Shown here: one piece after another, positions 18,255 to 27,168 of the stretch
Layout of the letters: every line of letters begins with the position of its first letter
How positions within the stretch are numbered: the first letter of the stretch is position 1
Assembly (NCBI GenBank): GCA_016744975.1
Contig: JADGDI010000019.1
Coordinates: 1-34,476, forward strand
DNA from: Hyphomicrobiales bacterium
GTDB lineage: Bacteria > Pseudomonadota > Alphaproteobacteria > Rhizobiales > OSC116
Reading direction: 5' to 3'
DNA: 34,476 bases
The notes under the pieces: model-generated
What the model saw: the letters and a program-made list of their open reading frames with translations, nothing else
The model's database searches: none
Told to the model about the DNA's origin: nothing
Program-made: the position numbers and the translations under genes

Positions 18255-19274
18255 TTAAATTTGAGTATTTGCTTGCACAGATGTAACAGCAATCATCACC
18301 ACTATGTCATCTACTGAGCAGCCGCGCGATAAATCATTTGCTGGTTTTGCTAACCCTTGCAATATAGGGCCTATCGCTTGCAGGCCACCTAATTGTTGGG
18401 CAATTTTATAGCCAATATTTCCCGCTTCCAAATTAGGGAAAACAAAAATGTTTGGCCGCTGTGCAAGCAGACTATTGGGCATTTTTGCAGTTCGAATTTC
18501 GTTATTAAATGCTGCATCAAATTGAATTTCACCATCAATAACAAGTTGCGGTTTGGAAGTTTGAACAATCGTTACCGCATTTTTCACCTTGTCGACAAGC
18601 TTATGTTCAGCACTGCCATTGCTCGAAAATGATAACATTGCAATTCGCGGCTGCTCACCTATCAAGTTCTGGCAAGAACTGGCCGATTGAATTGCAATTT
18701 CTGCTAATTTACTGCTATTTGGCGTAATTTGCAAAGCGCAATCAGCAAATATCATCCCACCTTCAAAGCCATTACTAGCTGCCAAATCGCTACCCTTTGC
18801 GCAGCCCAACATAAGAAAAAAACTAGAAACAATTTTGCTGTTTTTATTTTTACCTATAATATGCAATGCCTGCCTTACTGTATCTGCCGTGGTCTCAACC
18901 GCTCCAGCAAGAGTGCCGTCGGCATCTCCTTGGTCAACCATTATTGCAGCAAAAACCAAGGGGCTTTTAACAACATTTAGTGCATCTTCCATACTATATT
19001 TATGATATTTGCGTTTGGTCTTTAGGGCGGCGGCATAATCAGCAAGTTTGTTACTGCAACAAGGGTCAATAATTGAGTGAATATAATGACTAACTCCTTT
19101 ATTGGTGAGGTTTTTTCCAATGATACCCACATTACCAAGCAAGGTGACCTTTGCCAAACCTTGCTTAGAAGCAATAACTGCCGCTGCTAGAACACGCTCA
19201 TCTTCACCTTCGGCTAGAACAATATGTTTTAGACTTTTTCGAGCATTTTCAAAAATATGTTCTAGCAGGCGCAT
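18255..19274 (-). CDS. pta: Phosphate acetyltransferase
   Basis: The 339-residue protein is the short, single-domain form of Pta. It has HIVLAEGEDERVLAAA near the N-terminus, NGFEGGMIFADCALQITPN in the middle, and MLSFSSNGSAEH, all typical of the PTA/PTB fold. It converts acetyl phosphate and CoA to acetyl-CoA and phosphate. It lies 51 bases after xsc on the same strand, and xsc releases acetyl phosphate, so it directly consumes the Xsc product. This pairing is common in taurine and sulfonate degraders. AAAGGG precedes the ATG. No acetate kinase gene is present nearby, consistent with a role in assimilation. Confidence 0.95.
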   Translation of the reverse strand: MRLLEHIFENARKSLKHIVLAEGEDERVLAAAVIASKQGLAKVTLLGNVGIIGKNLTNKGVSHYIHSIIDPCCSNKLADYAAALKTKRKYHKYSMEDALNVVKSPLVFAAIMVDQGDADGTLAGAVETTADTVRQALHIIGKNKNSKIVSSFFLMLGCAKGSDLAASNGFEGGMIFADCALQITPNSSKLAEIAIQSASSCQNLIGEQPRIAMLSFSSNGSAEHKLVDKVKNAVTIVQTSKPQLVIDGEIQFDAAFNNEIRTAKMPNSLLAQRPNIFVFPNLEAGNIGYKIAQQLGGLQAIGPILQGLAKPANDLSRGCSVDDIVVMIAVTSVQANTQI

Positions 19275-19325
19275 AAAAACCCTTTATTGAAGCGAGTCAT
19301 TTTAAATATTTCAGATCATCTTGTT

Positions 19326-21095
19326 TTATTGCGGCCGCATATCAGATGCCAATATTTCGCAAACTTTGACAGGTTTTTTCATCGCATCACGTCTAAATGG
19401 CTCACCCAGCTCTTGATTAAGTATAATTTCAATAAATGTTGTGACACCTGCTTCTTGCTCCTTACATGCCAGCCTCAGCGCTTCTGAAATCTGATCCATA
19501 TTATTAACCTGCACACCTTTAAGACCACATGCACGTGCTATTTCTGCATAGCTAAAATCATCATTTAATTCGGTACCAACAAAATTATTATCATACCAAA
19601 GCGTGGTATTGCGTTTCTCAGCACCCCATTGGTAATTTCTAAAAATAACCATGGTCATCGCAGGCCATTCCTCACGGCCAATCGAGGTCATTTCATTCAT
19701 CGAAATACCAAAGGCCCCGTCACCTGCAAAGCCCACAACTGGCGTTTCTGGATTGCCAATTTTAGCACCCAAAACTGCAGGAAACCCATAACCACAGGGG
19801 CCAAACATACCTGGAGCCAAATATTTACGCCCCTGTTCAAAGCTTGAATAAGCATTACCAATCGCACAATTATTGCCAATATCGGAGGAAATAATTGCAT
19901 CACTTGGCAATGCCGCACTAATTGCACGCCATGCCATGCGGGGGCTTAAATGATCTGGTTGGCGGTTTCTTGCATCCTCATTCCAAGAAGTACCAACATC
20001 ATCATCTTCATGATCCATAGAGGTTAACAATTGCTGCCAAGCTGATTTGGTTTGACTAATCTCATTTTCGCGCTCTTGCCTGCCTATGTCACCCGCTGTT
20101 GGTTCAAGCAGAGATAATATTTTGGTTGCAACCATTTTTGCATCGCCTTGAATACCAACTGTCACTTTTTTGGTCAATCCAATGCGATCAGAATTAATGT
20201 CCACCTGAATGATTTTTGCATCTGTTGGCCAATAATCCAAACCATAGCCTGGCAGGGTCGAAAATGGGTTAAGCCGTGTGCCTAACGCCAAAACCACATC
20301 AGCTTTTTGTATCAACTGCATTGCAGCTTTTGAGCCGTTATAGCCAAGGGGGCCGCAAGCTAGTGGATGAGCACCAGGGAAGGCATCATTATGTTGATAA
20401 CCGCAACATACAGGTGCACTTAGCCGCTCAGCCAACATTTTGGATACTTCAATTGCACCGCCAATCACCACGCCCGCACCATTTAAAATTACAGGGAATT
20501 TTGCTTCTGAAAGCAAAGCTGCGGCTTGTTTGACCGCATCATCACCCCCCTGAGGCAATTCCAGTTTTACAATTTGTGGTAGTTCAATATCTATCACTTG
20601 GGTCCAATAATCACGTGGTAGGTTAATTTGGGCTGGCGCACAGCCACGCCAAGCTTTTTCAATCACCCTGTTTAATACTTCAGCCACCCTTGATGGATCA
20701 CGCACTTCTTCTTGGTAACAAACCATGTCTTGAAATAATGCCATTTGGTCAACTTCTTGAAAACCACCCTGACCGATTGTCTTATTAGCAGCTTGCGGGG
20801 TTACCAACAGCATTGGCGTATGGTTCCAATAAGCGGTTTTTACTGGTGTAACAAAATTGGTAATGCCTGGGCCATTTTGAGCAATCGCCATACACATTTT
20901 ACCAGTGGAGCGGGTAAAGCCATCAGCAATCATACCTGCCGTATATTCATGTGCGCAATCCCAAAAACTAATTCCTGCTTTGGGGAAAAGGTCAGAAATT
21001 GGCATCATTGCCGAACCAATGATGCCAAATCCATGTTCAATGCCATGCATTTGCAAAACTTTAATAAACGCTTCTTCGGTTGTCATTTTTGTCAT
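19326..21095 (-). CDS. xsc: Sulfoacetaldehyde acetyltransferase (thiamine diphosphate dependent)
   Basis: The 589-residue protein is a full-length acetolactate-synthase-fold enzyme of the Xsc type. The catalytic Glu50 lies in CAHEYTAGMIADGF, and the thiamine diphosphate motif begins GDGAFGISMNEM at about 458, closing with RN about 28 residues later. Xsc turns sulfoacetaldehyde and phosphate into sulfite and acetyl phosphate, the key step in taurine and related sulfonate catabolism. The partner pta follows, and a TauR-like regulator is divergent, which supports Xsc over other members of the family. GGGTGG precedes the ATG at 21095 at good distance; an internal ATG three codons later is less well placed. 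Taurine transaminase or dehydrogenase, and a sulfite exporter or sulfite dehydrogenase, are not in the window. Confidence 0.96.
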   Translation of the reverse strand: MTKMTTEEAFIKVLQMHGIEHGFGIIGSAMMPISDLFPKAGISFWDCAHEYTAGMIADGFTRSTGKMCMAIAQNGPGITNFVTPVKTAYWNHTPMLLVTPQAANKTIGQGGFQEVDQMALFQDMVCYQEEVRDPSRVAEVLNRVIEKAWRGCAPAQINLPRDYWTQVIDIELPQIVKLELPQGGDDAVKQAAALLSEAKFPVILNGAGVVIGGAIEVSKMLAERLSAPVCCGYQHNDAFPGAHPLACGPLGYNGSKAAMQLIQKADVVLALGTRLNPFSTLPGYGLDYWPTDAKIIQVDINSDRIGLTKKVTVGIQGDAKMVATKILSLLEPTAGDIGRQERENEISQTKSAWQQLLTSMDHEDDDVGTSWNEDARNRQPDHLSPRMAWRAISAALPSDAIISSDIGNNCAIGNAYSSFEQGRKYLAPGMFGPCGYGFPAVLGAKIGNPETPVVGFAGDGAFGISMNEMTSIGREEWPAMTMVIFRNYQWGAEKRNTTLWYDNNFVGTELNDDFSYAEIARACGLKGVQVNNMDQISEALRLACKEQEAGVTTFIEIILNQELGEPFRRDAMKKPVKVCEILASDMRPQ

Positions 21096-23243: not shown

Positions 23244-23425
23244 TTTATTCCCTTATCTTATTTTACCGCTTTGTAACATAATCCGCTTTACAATTTCAAT
23301 TATTCATGGCCTAGATAAAACTCAATTTTTTTAGTTTTTGCTATTAATTATTAAGTGCGTCAAAATGCCATCTTTCATTTAAAAGTAGAAATTCATAAGT
23401 TGCTTTTATTTCTGAGGAGAAGCTC

Positions 23426-24424
23426 ATGACTGATAGACGTAAATTTTTAAAACACTTAAGCGCATCCGCTGCGGTGATTACAGCAGGGAATATAATACCA
23501 ACATCAGCCTTTGCGGCGCAATCCAAATCAGCACTTAGCCTTTATGGGCCACCTGTTGGCCCGTCTGTCACTTTATCGCATATTGCGCAGACAAATCCAC
23601 TTACTAATTTTGTTGATAAAATTAATTTCAAAGTCTATAAAAACCCTGATATTTTAAGGGCAGGTTTTGTTTCGGGCAACTGGAAGTTAGCCGTAACACC
23701 TAGTTATGTCGCGGCCAATCTTGCAAATAAAGACCTGCCTGTCAAAATGCTGAACATTATGACATGGGGTATGCTTTATGTTATGAGCCTAGATGAAAAA
23801 ATTACTAAGCTAGAAGATTTAGAAGGCGAAAAAATCGCCATGTTTTTCAAAAATGACATGCCTGACTTAGTGTTTAACAAAATAATGAAAGCCAAGGGTT
23901 TAAAACTGGGTAGCGATTATGAGCTACATTATGCAGCAACGCCACTTGAAGCAGTTCAATTGCTTATTTCTGGCCGCGTGAAACATGCGGTATTGCCAGA
24001 ACCCGCCGCAACTGCTGCAATGGTAAAGGCAAAAAAAATACTTGATAAGAACATTTATCGCGCCATATCACTTCAGGACGAATGGGCAATTGTTAATAAT
24101 GGCAATGGTCGCTTTCCGATGGCGGGTGTTATGGTGCATGAAGACTTATTGCAAGCTACGCCTGAATTAATCGAAGCCTTTCATCATCAATGTGCCGTAG
24201 CAACAAGTTGGGTGAAAAACAATCATGCGAAAGCAGCATTGCAAGCTTCTAAAGTTTTAGGTATGGCAGCGCCAATCATTCAAAAGTCCATTCCAAACAC
24301 CCATTTAACCACAGAACGGGCAAAGGATATCAAAATAGAATTGGCTCGATTTTATGAGTTATTAGCAGAAGAAAACCCAAAGATCATTGGCGGTAAATTA
24401 CCCGATGATAATTTTTATATTTAG
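23426..24424 (+). CDS. ABC transporter substrate-binding protein (NrtA/SsuA/TauA-like), Tat-exported
   Basis: The 332-residue protein starts with a twin-arginine type signal: TDRRKFLK, then a hydrophobic stretch and a likely cleavage after SAFA at residue 30. The mature part resembles the NMT1/SsuA-like binding proteins that serve nitrate, sulfonate, taurine or pyrimidine importers, with GPPVGPSVTLSHIA near the start and LLISGRVKHAVLPEPAA in the second lobe. GAGGAG precedes the ATG. It is the first gene of a four-gene run with a permease, an ATPase and nnrS. The ligand cannot be read from sequence. Closeness to xsc suggests a sulfonate; linkage to nnrS suggests something connected to nitrogen oxides or metals. 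Confidence 0.88.
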   Translation: MTDRRKFLKHLSASAAVITAGNIIPTSAFAAQSKSALSLYGPPVGPSVTLSHIAQTNPLTNFVDKINFKVYKNPDILRAGFVSGNWKLAVTPSYVAANLANKDLPVKMLNIMTWGMLYVMSLDEKITKLEDLEGEKIAMFFKNDMPDLVFNKIMKAKGLKLGSDYELHYAATPLEAVQLLISGRVKHAVLPEPAATAAMVKAKKILDKNIYRAISLQDEWAIVNNGNGRFPMAGVMVHEDLLQATPELIEAFHHQCAVATSWVKNNHAKAALQASKVLGMAAPIIQKSIPNTHLTTERAKDIKIELARFYELLAEENPKIIGGKLPDDNFYI

Positions 24425-24441
24425 CATTAAAGCCCCACAAC

Positions 24442-25227
24442 ATGCAAAATTTAAAACAAATATTAGCTAATATTCTTCATTACTTATGGTCTGGCTGGGG
24501 CGGAGTTGCAAGCCTTTTCTTGCTGCTCGCCAGTTGGGAATATGGCCACCTTAAAATGGGTTCGCTCATCTTACCATCGCCAAAAGAGAGCCTCTTAGCG
24601 CTGCATATTGCACTGGTTAATGAGCAAGCATTCATAGATATTTTAATTACCTGCAAACGGGCTTTTTTTGGGTTTGGAGCCGCAGCGATACTTGCATCTG
24701 CCTCTGGTATTTTAGCGGGCATTTCGATGACCACATCAATGGCACTAAGACCAATCATTACCTTTACTATGGGTGTACCGCCAATTGCATGGATTATTCT
24801 TGCGCTCATGTGGTTTGCTAATGATGATATGACAGCAGGGTTTACGGTATTTGTTGTGATATTTCCTATTATTTTTGCGTCGGCAATGCAAGGCATGCGA
24901 ATGCGCAGAGCAACGCTTAATGAAATGGCTAATATCTATCAATTATCGCTTTGGCAAAAACTGATTCACCTAGATCTCCCGCAAGTTATTAGCTACTTGT
25001 TTCCCGCTTGGATAGTGGCGATGGGTATGAGCTGGAAAATTGTGGTAATGGCCGAATTATTAGGCACCAACAACGGCATCGGCGCTGCAATGGCAACAGC
25101 GCGAGTAAATATTGATACAGCAGCCACAATGGCTTGGATATTAGTCATAATCGCTATGTTATTATTAATCGAATATTTGTTTTTAGAGCCCATTAAGCGC
25201 CATATCGAGAGGTGGAAGCCAAGATGA
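24442..25227 (+). CDS. ABC transporter permease (SsuC/TauC/NrtB-like)
   Basis: The 261-residue protein has about six membrane helices and the BPD_transp_1 layout. The coupling loop EMANIYQLSLWQKLIHLDLPQ (about 157-177) is the EAA-like region that contacts the ATPase. SLWQKLIHLDLP and the preceding MQGMRMRRATLNEMA pattern are usual for the nitrate/sulfonate/taurine subfamily. It starts 17 bases after the binding-protein gene. Its stop overlaps the likely start of the ATPase gene as ATGA. Confidence 0.93.
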   Translation: MQNLKQILANILHYLWSGWGGVASLFLLLASWEYGHLKMGSLILPSPKESLLALHIALVNEQAFIDILITCKRAFFGFGAAAILASASGILAGISMTTSMALRPIITFTMGVPPIAWIILALMWFANDDMTAGFTVFVVIFPIIFASAMQGMRMRRATLNEMANIYQLSLWQKLIHLDLPQVISYLFPAWIVAMGMSWKIVVMAELLGTNNGIGAAMATARVNIDTAATMAWILVIIAMLLLIEYLFLEPIKRHIERWKPR

Positions 25228-25952
25228 GCCTACTTAGCGTAAATATTAAAGAATATGGCTATATGCCAATTTACCCAAACATCAGAAACATTCGTTTCGA
25301 GGTCAATATTGGGCAAATCATTGCGATTATTGGCGCTTCTGGCAGCGGCAAAACAACATTGCTTAAGTTAGCCGCAGGGTTAATATATCCCCATGACGGT
25401 GATGTGATAAACCACTTTAATAAACAAGCTTATTTGTTTCAAGAAACTAGATTATTGCCTTGGAAAAACTGTTTGGATAATATTACATTAAGTCAGTTAG
25501 CGAGCAAGGTAGATAAAAAAAAGGCACGTCAATATGCGCTATTAATGGGGCTAAATGACGAAGATTTAAAAAAATATCCCACCGAATTGTCTGGCGGTAT
25601 GCGCCAGCGCGTTGCGCTTGCTAGGGCATTTATCACCGAGCCCGATTTATTGTTTTTAGATGAGCCTTTTGGCGCTTTAGACTTTATGTTGCGCGAAGAA
25701 ATGCAACAGTTATTACTAGGCCAAATTGAACTGCAAAAACGAGCCGTTTTAATGGTAACTCATGATTTGGATGAAGCCATAAAATTGGCCGATATGATTA
25801 TCGTTTTAGGCGGGGAGCCAGCTGAAATTACAAAATCTATTTCCATTTCAAAATCGCGAGAAACTCGAGATGCAGAATATATATTTGTTGAAAAACAAAG
25901 GTTAATGCAAATGCCTGAAATCATCACAAGCTTTAAAGTAAGAAATCAATAA
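25224..25952 (+). CDS. ABC transporter ATP-binding protein (SsuB/TauB/NrtD-like)
   Basis: From the ATG at 25224 the protein has 242 residues. This start overlaps the permease stop as ATGA and has GGAAG upstream, so it is preferred over an in-frame GTG at 25212. All nucleotide-binding motifs are present: Walker A GASGSGKTT, Q-loop YLFQETRLLPW, signature LSGGMRQRVALARA, Walker B LLFLDEPFGALD and switch histidine VTHD. The Q-loop text and the LPW that follows are typical of the nitrate/sulfonate/taurine subfamily. It powers import with the permease and binding protein encoded just before it. The next gene, nnrS, begins directly after its stop. Confidence 0.95.
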   Translation: MSLLSVNIKEYGYMPIYPNIRNIRFEVNIGQIIAIIGASGSGKTTLLKLAAGLIYPHDGDVINHFNKQAYLFQETRLLPWKNCLDNITLSQLASKVDKKKARQYALLMGLNDEDLKKYPTELSGGMRQRVALARAFITEPDLLFLDEPFGALDFMLREEMQQLLLGQIELQKRAVLMVTHDLDEAIKLADMIIVLGGEPAEITKSISISKSRETRDAEYIFVEKQRLMQMPEIITSFKVRNQ

Positions 25953-25953
25953 A

Positions 25954-27168
25954 ATGTCATACATGCCTTTAAATAACCAGCTTTGGAAACAACATATTAC
26001 ATCAGAAGCATTGCGCCTGATTTTTCCGTTAATTGCATTATATGCCATTTTTGCGATCATTATTTGGACATTAACCTTTACTGGCATTTTTAATTTCAAC
26101 CCAGCCGGTGATATTATTGCTTGGCATTATTATGACATGCTGTTTGGCTTTACTTATATTGGCCTTTTGGGCTTTATTTTAACAGCAGGGCCTGAATGGG
26201 CTAACGTTAAAAAAGTGGCCGGAAAAGAACTAATTTTAGTTGTTATTGCATGGATGTTTTGTCGATTTAGCTTTTGGTTCTTAGAGGTTTTAACAATATA
26301 TCCAACAATGTTTAGCCATTTATTGCTGAGTGGGTGGCTAATTTGGCGCCTTATTCCATTATTAATAAACACAATGATGAGCCGCCTAATCCTTACTATA
26401 TCTGCATTATATTTGGCGCAAATATTGTTTTTTGCTACTCATTTAGAGTGGGTCGAAATTAGTCTATTATCTGTTTCTAGGCTGACAGCGGGCATATTCG
26501 TTATTATGATATTACAGGTGCTAAAACCAATTTCATTGGTAATAATGAATGATAGTATAACGCAAAAACATATTGATGAGGTATTTATTCCACGACCGCC
26601 GCGTAGGCGATTTGCTATTTTTTGCCTAGCTTTATTTATAGCAATTGATTTCTCAACCACCAATGCAATGTTTATAATCTCTGCAGATTTAGAGGCCTAT
26701 ATAAGCTTTGCAGTGATGGCATCCTTGCTAAATATTTTAAACGATTGGCATATAAAAAATTCCATATTTTCAATATTTGCGATGCCACTCTACCTAATTT
26801 ATTGGTTTATCGCTATTGGAATGTTGATTTTTGGGCTAGAAAAACTAGCAATTTTTGACTATTTATCTATGGCAAATGCCGAATTGCATGCCCGTCATTT
26901 AATCTTTATGGGCGCGATTGGCTTAGCAATATTTATGGTTCTACTAATTGCTGGTAGACGCCATACTGGCAGATCATTAAATTTATCTATAAAAATAAAA
27001 TTTGCTTTATTGTGCATTATTTCATCGGTAATTAGCCGTGGTTTGATGCCGATCATTCTGCCTGATCAAATTGAATTGATTTACCAAATTTCGGCATTAT
27101 TTTGGGTCCTAGCTTTTAGTTTATATTTAAGTGAGTTTTTACCATTTTTCTTACGAAAAAATCTATAA
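25954..27168 (+). CDS. nnrS: NnrS family membrane protein
   Basis: The 404-residue protein has about twelve membrane helices. It matches NnrS in the early segment AWHYYDMLFGF...GFILTAGPEWANV and the late segment ELHARHLIFMGAIGLAIF...GRRHTGRSL. NnrS proteins are heme- and copper-containing inner-membrane proteins that help cells withstand nitric oxide stress. In most members the first motif is WHAHEMLFGF; here the second histidine is tyrosine, so one possible metal ligand is lost. It begins one base after the ATPase stop without a clear ribosome binding site, so translation may depend on the genes before it. Linkage to an SsuABC-type importer is not the usual setting. Its last six bases overlap the 3' end of the convergent LysR gene. 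Confidence 0.87.
   Translation: MSYMPLNNQLWKQHITSEALRLIFPLIALYAIFAIIIWTLTFTGIFNFNPAGDIIAWHYYDMLFGFTYIGLLGFILTAGPEWANVKKVAGKELILVVIAWMFCRFSFWFLEVLTIYPTMFSHLLLSGWLIWRLIPLLINTMMSRLILTISALYLAQILFFATHLEWVEISLLSVSRLTAGIFVIMILQVLKPISLVIMNDSITQKHIDEVFIPRPPRRRFAIFCLALFIAIDFSTTNAMFIISADLEAYISFAVMASLLNILNDWHIKNSIFSIFAMPLYLIYWFIAIGMLIFGLEKLAIFDYLSMANAELHARHLIFMGAIGLAIFMVLLIAGRRHTGRSLNLSIKIKFALLCIISSVISRGLMPIILPDQIELIYQISALFWVLAFSLYLSEFLPFFLRKNL

Follow-up and report, generated by a model that had tools for sequence, protein, structure and literature searches.

The stretch analyzed here spans positions 1-34,476 of contig JADGDI010000019.1 of a Hyphomicrobiales bacterium (GCA_016744975.1) and is hereafter called the window. 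It carries four adjacent genes encoding an ATP-binding cassette (ABC) importer and a membrane protein of the NnrS family, arranged as follows:

23426-24424, forward strand: periplasmic substrate-binding protein, 332 amino acids (aa), NitT/TauT-like, in a subfamily of its own (family searches, relatives, tree)
24442-25227, forward strand: ABC permease, 261 aa (Pfam BPD_transp_1, 56.8 bits)
25224-25952, forward strand: ABC ATPase (Pfam ABC_tran, 101.7 bits)
25954-27168, forward strand: NnrS-family membrane protein of an importer-linked subfamily (PF05940, 200.8 bits; tree; alignment columns)

The original prediction had described these genes as consecutive, with gaps of 17, -4, and 1 bases, and both coordinates and gaps were reproduced from the sequence. 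The ATPase start codon adopted here, ATG at 25224, overlaps the permease stop codon (ATGA) and replaces the in-frame GTG at 25212 given in the list of open reading frames.

Searches with the binding protein as query found relatives in 27 of 297 genomes at the order level (E limit 1e-20), 4 of 385 at the class level, and 9 of 398 at the phylum level (1e-35 for both), with the source genome counted each time. They lie in 37 different genomes, and in 16 of these NnrS is encoded no more than 7 kb away. A tblastn search over 72,556 plasmid records gave matches in 67, and NnrS was near the relative in 14 of the 15 inspected, which were picked for variety; a scan of genome contigs yielded one relative, in a Chromatiales metagenome-assembled genome (MAG). 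When the 58 binding-protein genes were pooled, 33 had NnrS within 7 kb and 25 had the same four-gene order. The near copies L065 and L076 are both included in all three of these counts, loci L044 and L045 are each counted twice in the 58 and the 33, and the order test permits spacing (at L067 a small extra gene separates binding protein and permease). Because 25 of the 58 related genes share it, the gene order is not due to chance, and the neighborhood survey suggested by the original prediction thus found an arrangement that extends well beyond the source strain. The linked unit occurs in Pseudomonadota and Campylobacterota, the named records belonging to Alphaproteobacteria, Epsilonproteobacteria (Campylobacterota), and the Chromatiales MAG, together with Neisseria, where the gene order differs. 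On the binding-protein tree, the presence of NnrS changes 7 times, compared with 19 times in shuffles. Within the window genus, a close operon is present in three of six genomes, and genome G088 holds a distant relative only. Overall, it is well supported that the importer and NnrS form a single conserved unit shared across two phyla.

NnrS has long been known as a nitric oxide (NO)-response gene, and it has no clear biochemical role. The window protein matches PF05940 over profile positions 3-370 of 371, at a score far above the gathering cut-off of 28 bits. A midpoint-rooted tree of 41 NnrS proteins placed 30 from importer clusters on one side and 11, mostly ordinary, on the other (Shimodaira-Hasegawa-like approximate likelihood ratio test, SH-aLRT, 91). 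Seven loci represented in this tree carry NnrS in tandem (L044, L045, L048, L064, L065, L076, and L079); in each, the copy adjacent to the ATPase is of the importer type and the second copy is of the ordinary type. Like the NnrS of denitrifiers and Vibrio, the importer-type proteins match PF05940 and retain three conserved histidines (His58 in 29/30, His315 and His337 each in 30/30), all of which are present in the window. They differ from ordinary NnrS in their tie to an importer and at two positions, with Glu in 25/30 versus Asn in 10/11 at position 81, and Ile in 24/30 versus Arg in 10/11 at position 332. The window protein bears both subfamily marks, Glu81 and Ile332, and has Tyr60 at the position of a fourth histidine in ordinary NnrS. 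The NnrS proteins of importer operons are a subfamily apart from ordinary NnrS, of which the source genome encodes one elsewhere (contig C105, 329 bits). Conservation of the unit and the separate status of its NnrS subfamily support the original prediction of NnrS working with the importer.

Alternatively, NnrS could merely be co-transcribed for NO tolerance, with no working link to the importer. In the accessible parts of two papers, NnrS is described as NO-protective or NO-responsive, with no mention of an importer (PMC11526790, PMC10256816). In addition, 20 relatives with permease and ATPase genes have no NnrS nearby. However, co-transcription alone appears improbable for a separate NnrS subfamily that accompanies the importer in two phyla, even beside an ordinary NnrS. 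Twelve of the 58 binding-protein genes (L033, L035, L047, L049-L051, L054-L058, and L060, a sister branch) adjoin an [FeFe]-hydrogenase-type gene and a GltD/NuoF-like flavoprotein gene, without NnrS nearby. The hydrogenase at L049 matched Fe_hyd_lg_C at 300.7 bits and a small-subunit domain, and the other hydrogenase-linked loci were assigned by similarity to L049. Genes in unannotated loci came from our own simple calls, and L050:5067-8276 matched no Pfam family. A single 517-aa frame at L053 (5594-7147) combines an ABC ATPase domain with most of an NnrS domain; it misses the end of one domain and the start of the other, may be a natural or an assembly-made fusion, and was not used as strong evidence.

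The permease, ATPase, and NnrS scores all exceed the respective Pfam cut-offs, and the binding protein gave only sub-threshold Pfam matches (Phosphonate-bd, 24.5 bits versus 27; NMT1_2, 20.5 versus 24.7). An alignment with its relatives, which included the window and omitted four distant or long-branch rows (L040, L086, L087, and L088), highlighted two segments:

23435-23449, forward strand: twin-arginine (Tat-like) signal start RRKFL, residues 4-8
23852-23866, forward strand: acidic ligand-loop motif N-D-M-P-D, residues 143-147

The arginine pair is conserved in NnrS-linked rows (R4 in 29/33, R5 in 30/33), in all 12 hydrogenase-linked rows, and in 8 of 9 others. We take RRKFL to resemble a twin-arginine translocation (Tat) signal, and the binding protein is accordingly a candidate for Tat export. 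In the loop, D144 is present in 33, M145 in 23, P146 in 32, and D147 in 27 of the 33 NnrS-linked rows. The GSSS of SsuA aligns with K-N-D-M of the binding protein (NDM opposite SSS), followed by P-D. Since an acidic motif here replaces the serines of the Ser-rich loop of SsuA (2x26), which presumably bind the sulfonate, an oxyanion would be a disfavored ligand. Structures predicted from two-sequence alignments were too poor for inspection of the pocket (mean predicted local distance difference test score of 41 for the binding protein and 50 for NnrS).

The importer resembles SsuABC, TauABC, and NrtABC in having a binding protein, a single permease gene, and an ATPase of the same general type, and its best NCBIfam models are SsuA_fam (binding protein), SsuB (ATPase), and SaoP and ntrB (permease). 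However, the window proteins score far under the curated cut-offs (SsuA_fam, 35.4 bits versus 163.5; ntrB, 78 bits of the 209 needed), and the family has NDMPD for the SsuA GSSS, with NnrS and frequently an outer-membrane barrel encoded close by. The label "SsuABC-type" given in the original prediction is therefore only loosely right. A genuine xsc gene lies next door with pta (window positions 18255-21095, 2.3 kb upstream of the importer; xsc, 952 bits versus a cut-off of 676), so that an importer of taurine or another sulfonate could feed these sulfoacetaldehyde genes, as the best models for the ATPase and binding protein and the TauE-type exporter genes near some relatives might also suggest. 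This explanation is very unlikely given the low SsuA score, the replaced serine loop, the absence of xsc and pta from all 60 fetched loci, and the recurrence of NnrS as the partner, and sulfonate import for the neighboring xsc was rejected. The taurine-binding protein model TIGR01729 had no match in the whole source genome. The PdxR/MocR-type regulator, RidA, the downstream LysR gene, and the next two genes, which were labeled by eye, were likewise without a match in the 60 loci; hence, the neighboring genes of the window are not conserved with the importer.

Among the genes beside relatives, metals and nitrate respiration recur, and no single metal does. On two Agrobacterium plasmids, nap genes follow NnrS, along with U32-peptidase/SCP2 genes that we take to be UbiTUV. 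In Shinella, the receptor gene is preceded at 4.5 kb by nosL and a nosX-type gene, and Martelella has pseudoazurin (131 bits; cut-off 110), NnrU, and Rrf2 genes beside the importer. Rrf2 genes also adjoin the importer in Chelatococcus and Paracoccus, and the Rrf2 regulators beside relatives score nearly alike for RirA and NsrR. The Nitratiruptor copy is accompanied by FTR1, ferritin, and a Fur-type gene, and the Cereibacter copy by the heme-use genes hutW/hutX and FeoA.

Regulatory motifs of the FNR/NnrR type are likewise found upstream of related operons. TTG-N8-CAA occurs upstream of 10 of 31 linked operons (shuffle mean, 2.25; none of 200 shuffles reached 10), and FNR boxes with no more than one mismatch occur upstream of 4 of 31, compared with 0.55 in shuffles; these counts exclude L076, which nearly duplicates L065, as well as a linked gene whose available upstream DNA was too short. 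Corresponding values were 2/12 and 0/12 in the hydrogenase-linked branch and 1/13 for each motif among the remaining genes. Among order-level relatives, TTGATTTTCATCAA lies at -146 in L044 and TTGACGTTGATCAA at -117 in L045. For the window itself, the original prediction had reported no such box upstream, which was confirmed by a motif count: allowing up to two mismatches, the window contains 50 copies of TTGAT-N4-ATCAA versus 41.2 expected, and one degenerate site lies before the operon:

23312-23325, forward strand: degenerate FNR-like site TAGATAAAACTCAA, at a distance of 114 bases from the operon, with no other such site between the operon and the divergent gene upstream of it

An equally good site was found in 32% of shuffles, and TAGATAAAACTCAA is thus not significant in the source genome. 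No FNR-type box of this kind lies upstream in the congener G122 either.

The nap genes and the boxes in related operons could also fit an NrtABC-like nitrate or nitrite importer, with NnrS guarding against the ensuing NO. The closest solved structure to the binding protein, 3hn0, is named a nitrate transport protein; a search with the single sequence recovered no other PDB chain at E 0.1, and 3hn0 also ranked first with a profile. However, this name is the depositor's label, and 3hn0 reads NGTTPD where the binding-protein family has NDMPD, so that the first acid of the loop is missing. The acidic loop would itself make a poor oxyanion site, the ntrB score of the permease is low, and a receptor-type barrel would be needless for nitrate, making this option decidedly unlikely.

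Based on gene context and sequence motifs, we tentatively propose that the operon encodes an importer whose cargo is a metal or metal complex and whose dedicated membrane partner is NnrS, and that this system is frequently associated with anaerobic respiration of nitrogen oxides (probability of about 0.4). The suggestion of a metal in the original prediction gains from the receptor-like barrels, pseudoazurin, and Fur- and Rrf2-type regulators beside relatives, although no metal-binding site was seen. Further support comes from a description of NnrS as containing heme and copper (PMC10256816), from the acidic NDMPD loop in place of the SsuA serines, and from nosZ with its accessory genes in the source genome. 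Of the 33 linked genes, 19 (17 loci) have a receptor-type barrel within 7 kb, versus 4 of 25 unlinked genes, with labels taken from phmmer searches with five reference receptors, by which others may be missed; another outer-membrane barrel is found near two more linked genes. TonB-copper (TIGR01778, the OprC/NosA copper receptors) is the best curated NCBIfam family for the barrels of L045 (236 bits), L046 (178 bits), and L062 (167 bits), all below the cut-off of 472. The barrels of L045 and L062 adjoin the nearest receptor-bearing relatives of the window. For the closest relatives of the window, we lean toward copper as the cargo, with iron also possible. The OprC/NosA-like barrels adjoining an importer or binding protein are L045:12361-14337, L046:9255-11180, L062:6045-7982, and L085:6017-7903. 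In the L044 and L045 clusters, the binding-protein and NnrS genes are each present twice, alongside a receptor barrel, and the second binding proteins form a branch of their own. The L082 barrel had no Pfam match.

Iron or an iron complex (siderophore or heme-related) is the strongest competitor to copper, in which case NnrS would guard the incoming iron against NO, that is, against iron-nitrosyl formation. This is consistent with the iron- and heme-related genes of the Nitratiruptor and Cereibacter copies, with Rrf2 regulators that resemble RirA and NsrR alike in score, and with receptors whose best family is siderophore-type at L063, L064, L069, L070, and L071, and ligand-gated or hemin-type at L067, in all cases below the cut-off. 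The TonB-copper-like barrels of L045 and L062 argue against iron, as does the finding that no such receptor was found in the six genomes of the window genus, and we consider an iron importer rather unlikely.

Denitrification genes provide a further context in which to weigh the proposal. The original prediction noted their absence here, and none was found among the 10 window proteins put through family searches, with the remaining window genes left unsearched. The contrast drawn from this was misleading, as nosZ is present in the same genome, relatives lie beside nap, NnrU, and pseudoazurin genes, and related operons carry boxes. In the source genome (2.77 Mb, 191 contigs, 95% complete), contig C150 carries nosZ followed by nosD, an ABC ATPase, one unsearched gene, nosL, and an ApbE/NosX gene, and NirK had no match. 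If copper for NirK and NosZ were the cargo, both enzymes should mark linked genomes. An initial subset (28 of 39 genomes) gave 14 of 16 linked versus 3 of 10 unlinked, a contrast that weakened once the other 11 were added.

Several observations weigh against a metal importer partnered with NnrS, or against copper as its cargo. In the full set, NirK or NosZ is present in 14 of 16 linked versus 12 of 21 unlinked genomes (Fisher P = 0.07, uncorrected for kinship), so that the copper enzymes are not clearly a marker of linkage. A close importer is missing from three of the six genus genomes, of which two (G051 and G088) have both nosZ and nirK. No outer-membrane barrel was recognized near 12 of the 33 linked genes, including the window; PF00593, the TonB-dependent receptor barrel, was absent from the source genome and five congeners (two of them only 71% and 75% complete), and an OprC/NosA-type copper receptor was not found in the window's genome. 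The copper-like barrels of L045, L046, L062, and L085 have no TonB plug domain detectable by Pfam, whereas plug domains are present in three tested receptors of other lineages (L068 of Paracoccus denitrificans, L080, and L081). According to the accessible part of one paper, the copper site of OprC-type receptors has the motif CxxxM-HxM (PMC7558416); in barrels beside relatives, CxxxM was found in 0 of 8 and HxM in 4 of 8, and the full motif is not retained. Receptors elsewhere are siderophore- or heme-type by best family. Beyond the degenerate TAGATAAAACTCAA, the window operon has no FNR box upstream. At L081, the NnrS beside the importer falls on the ordinary side of the tree, an exception to the subfamily rule. 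Finally, the alignment of the binding protein with its relatives shows no fully conserved His or Cys, and a classic His/Cys metal site is therefore not visible.

Under the proposed metal import, the binding protein would reach the periplasm already folded, via the Tat route, and would there capture a metal or metal complex, which in many relatives may be delivered by a receptor-type outer-membrane barrel. In the window genus, where such a receptor was not found, the cargo could enter through porins. The permease and ATPase would then import it, and NnrS, a multi-helix protein with conserved histidines, may handle the metal at the inner membrane by changing its redox state, by exchanging heme or copper, or by shielding it from NO. 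In some lineages, the unit would be under FNR/NnrR-type control, beside nitrate-respiration genes. A more specific version, which we regard as rather unlikely, holds that these operons represent an unnamed class of ABC importer with a specialized heme/copper NnrS as a working component; at the membrane, this NnrS would accept the imported metal (copper or iron) from either the binding protein or the permease and prevent its reaction with NO.

Plasmid records CP070277.1 and NZ_CP066787.1, one filed under a Dysgonomonadaceae bacterium and the other under Martelella, are equal in length (166,348 bases), match identity, and score, and the Dysgonomonadaceae record may be misfiled. Neisseria gonorrhoeae record NZ_CP119142.1 (L073; 2.17 Mb) is filed as a plasmid and is chromosome-like in size, and its receptor gene beside the importer is split into two frames. 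On contig C150 of the source genome, L089:11795-14542 is one frame that joins part of a resistance-nodulation-division (RND) transporter to a downstream homoserine dehydrogenase and may result from misassembly.

Copper entry into the cytoplasm of Gram-negative bacteria is poorly understood. The accessible part of one review gives the major facilitator superfamily (MFS)-type CcoA family as the prototype of import into the cytoplasm and considers further systems likely (PMC7558416). The importer-NnrS unit is new insofar as no description was found in the open-access literature searched, in which the accessible parts of nine papers did not describe NnrS with an importer (PMC9409073, PMC6710368, PMC6769254, PMC1274295, PMC5918138, PMC9549626, PMC4714114, PMC11526790, PMC10256816), subscription papers lying largely outside this coverage. 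With a dedicated NnrS joined to an importer in one conserved operon, NnrS function becomes directly testable. If the more specific version is true, the metal supply to denitrification enzymes would include an ABC-import step, and the NnrS family would gain its first defined biochemical job.

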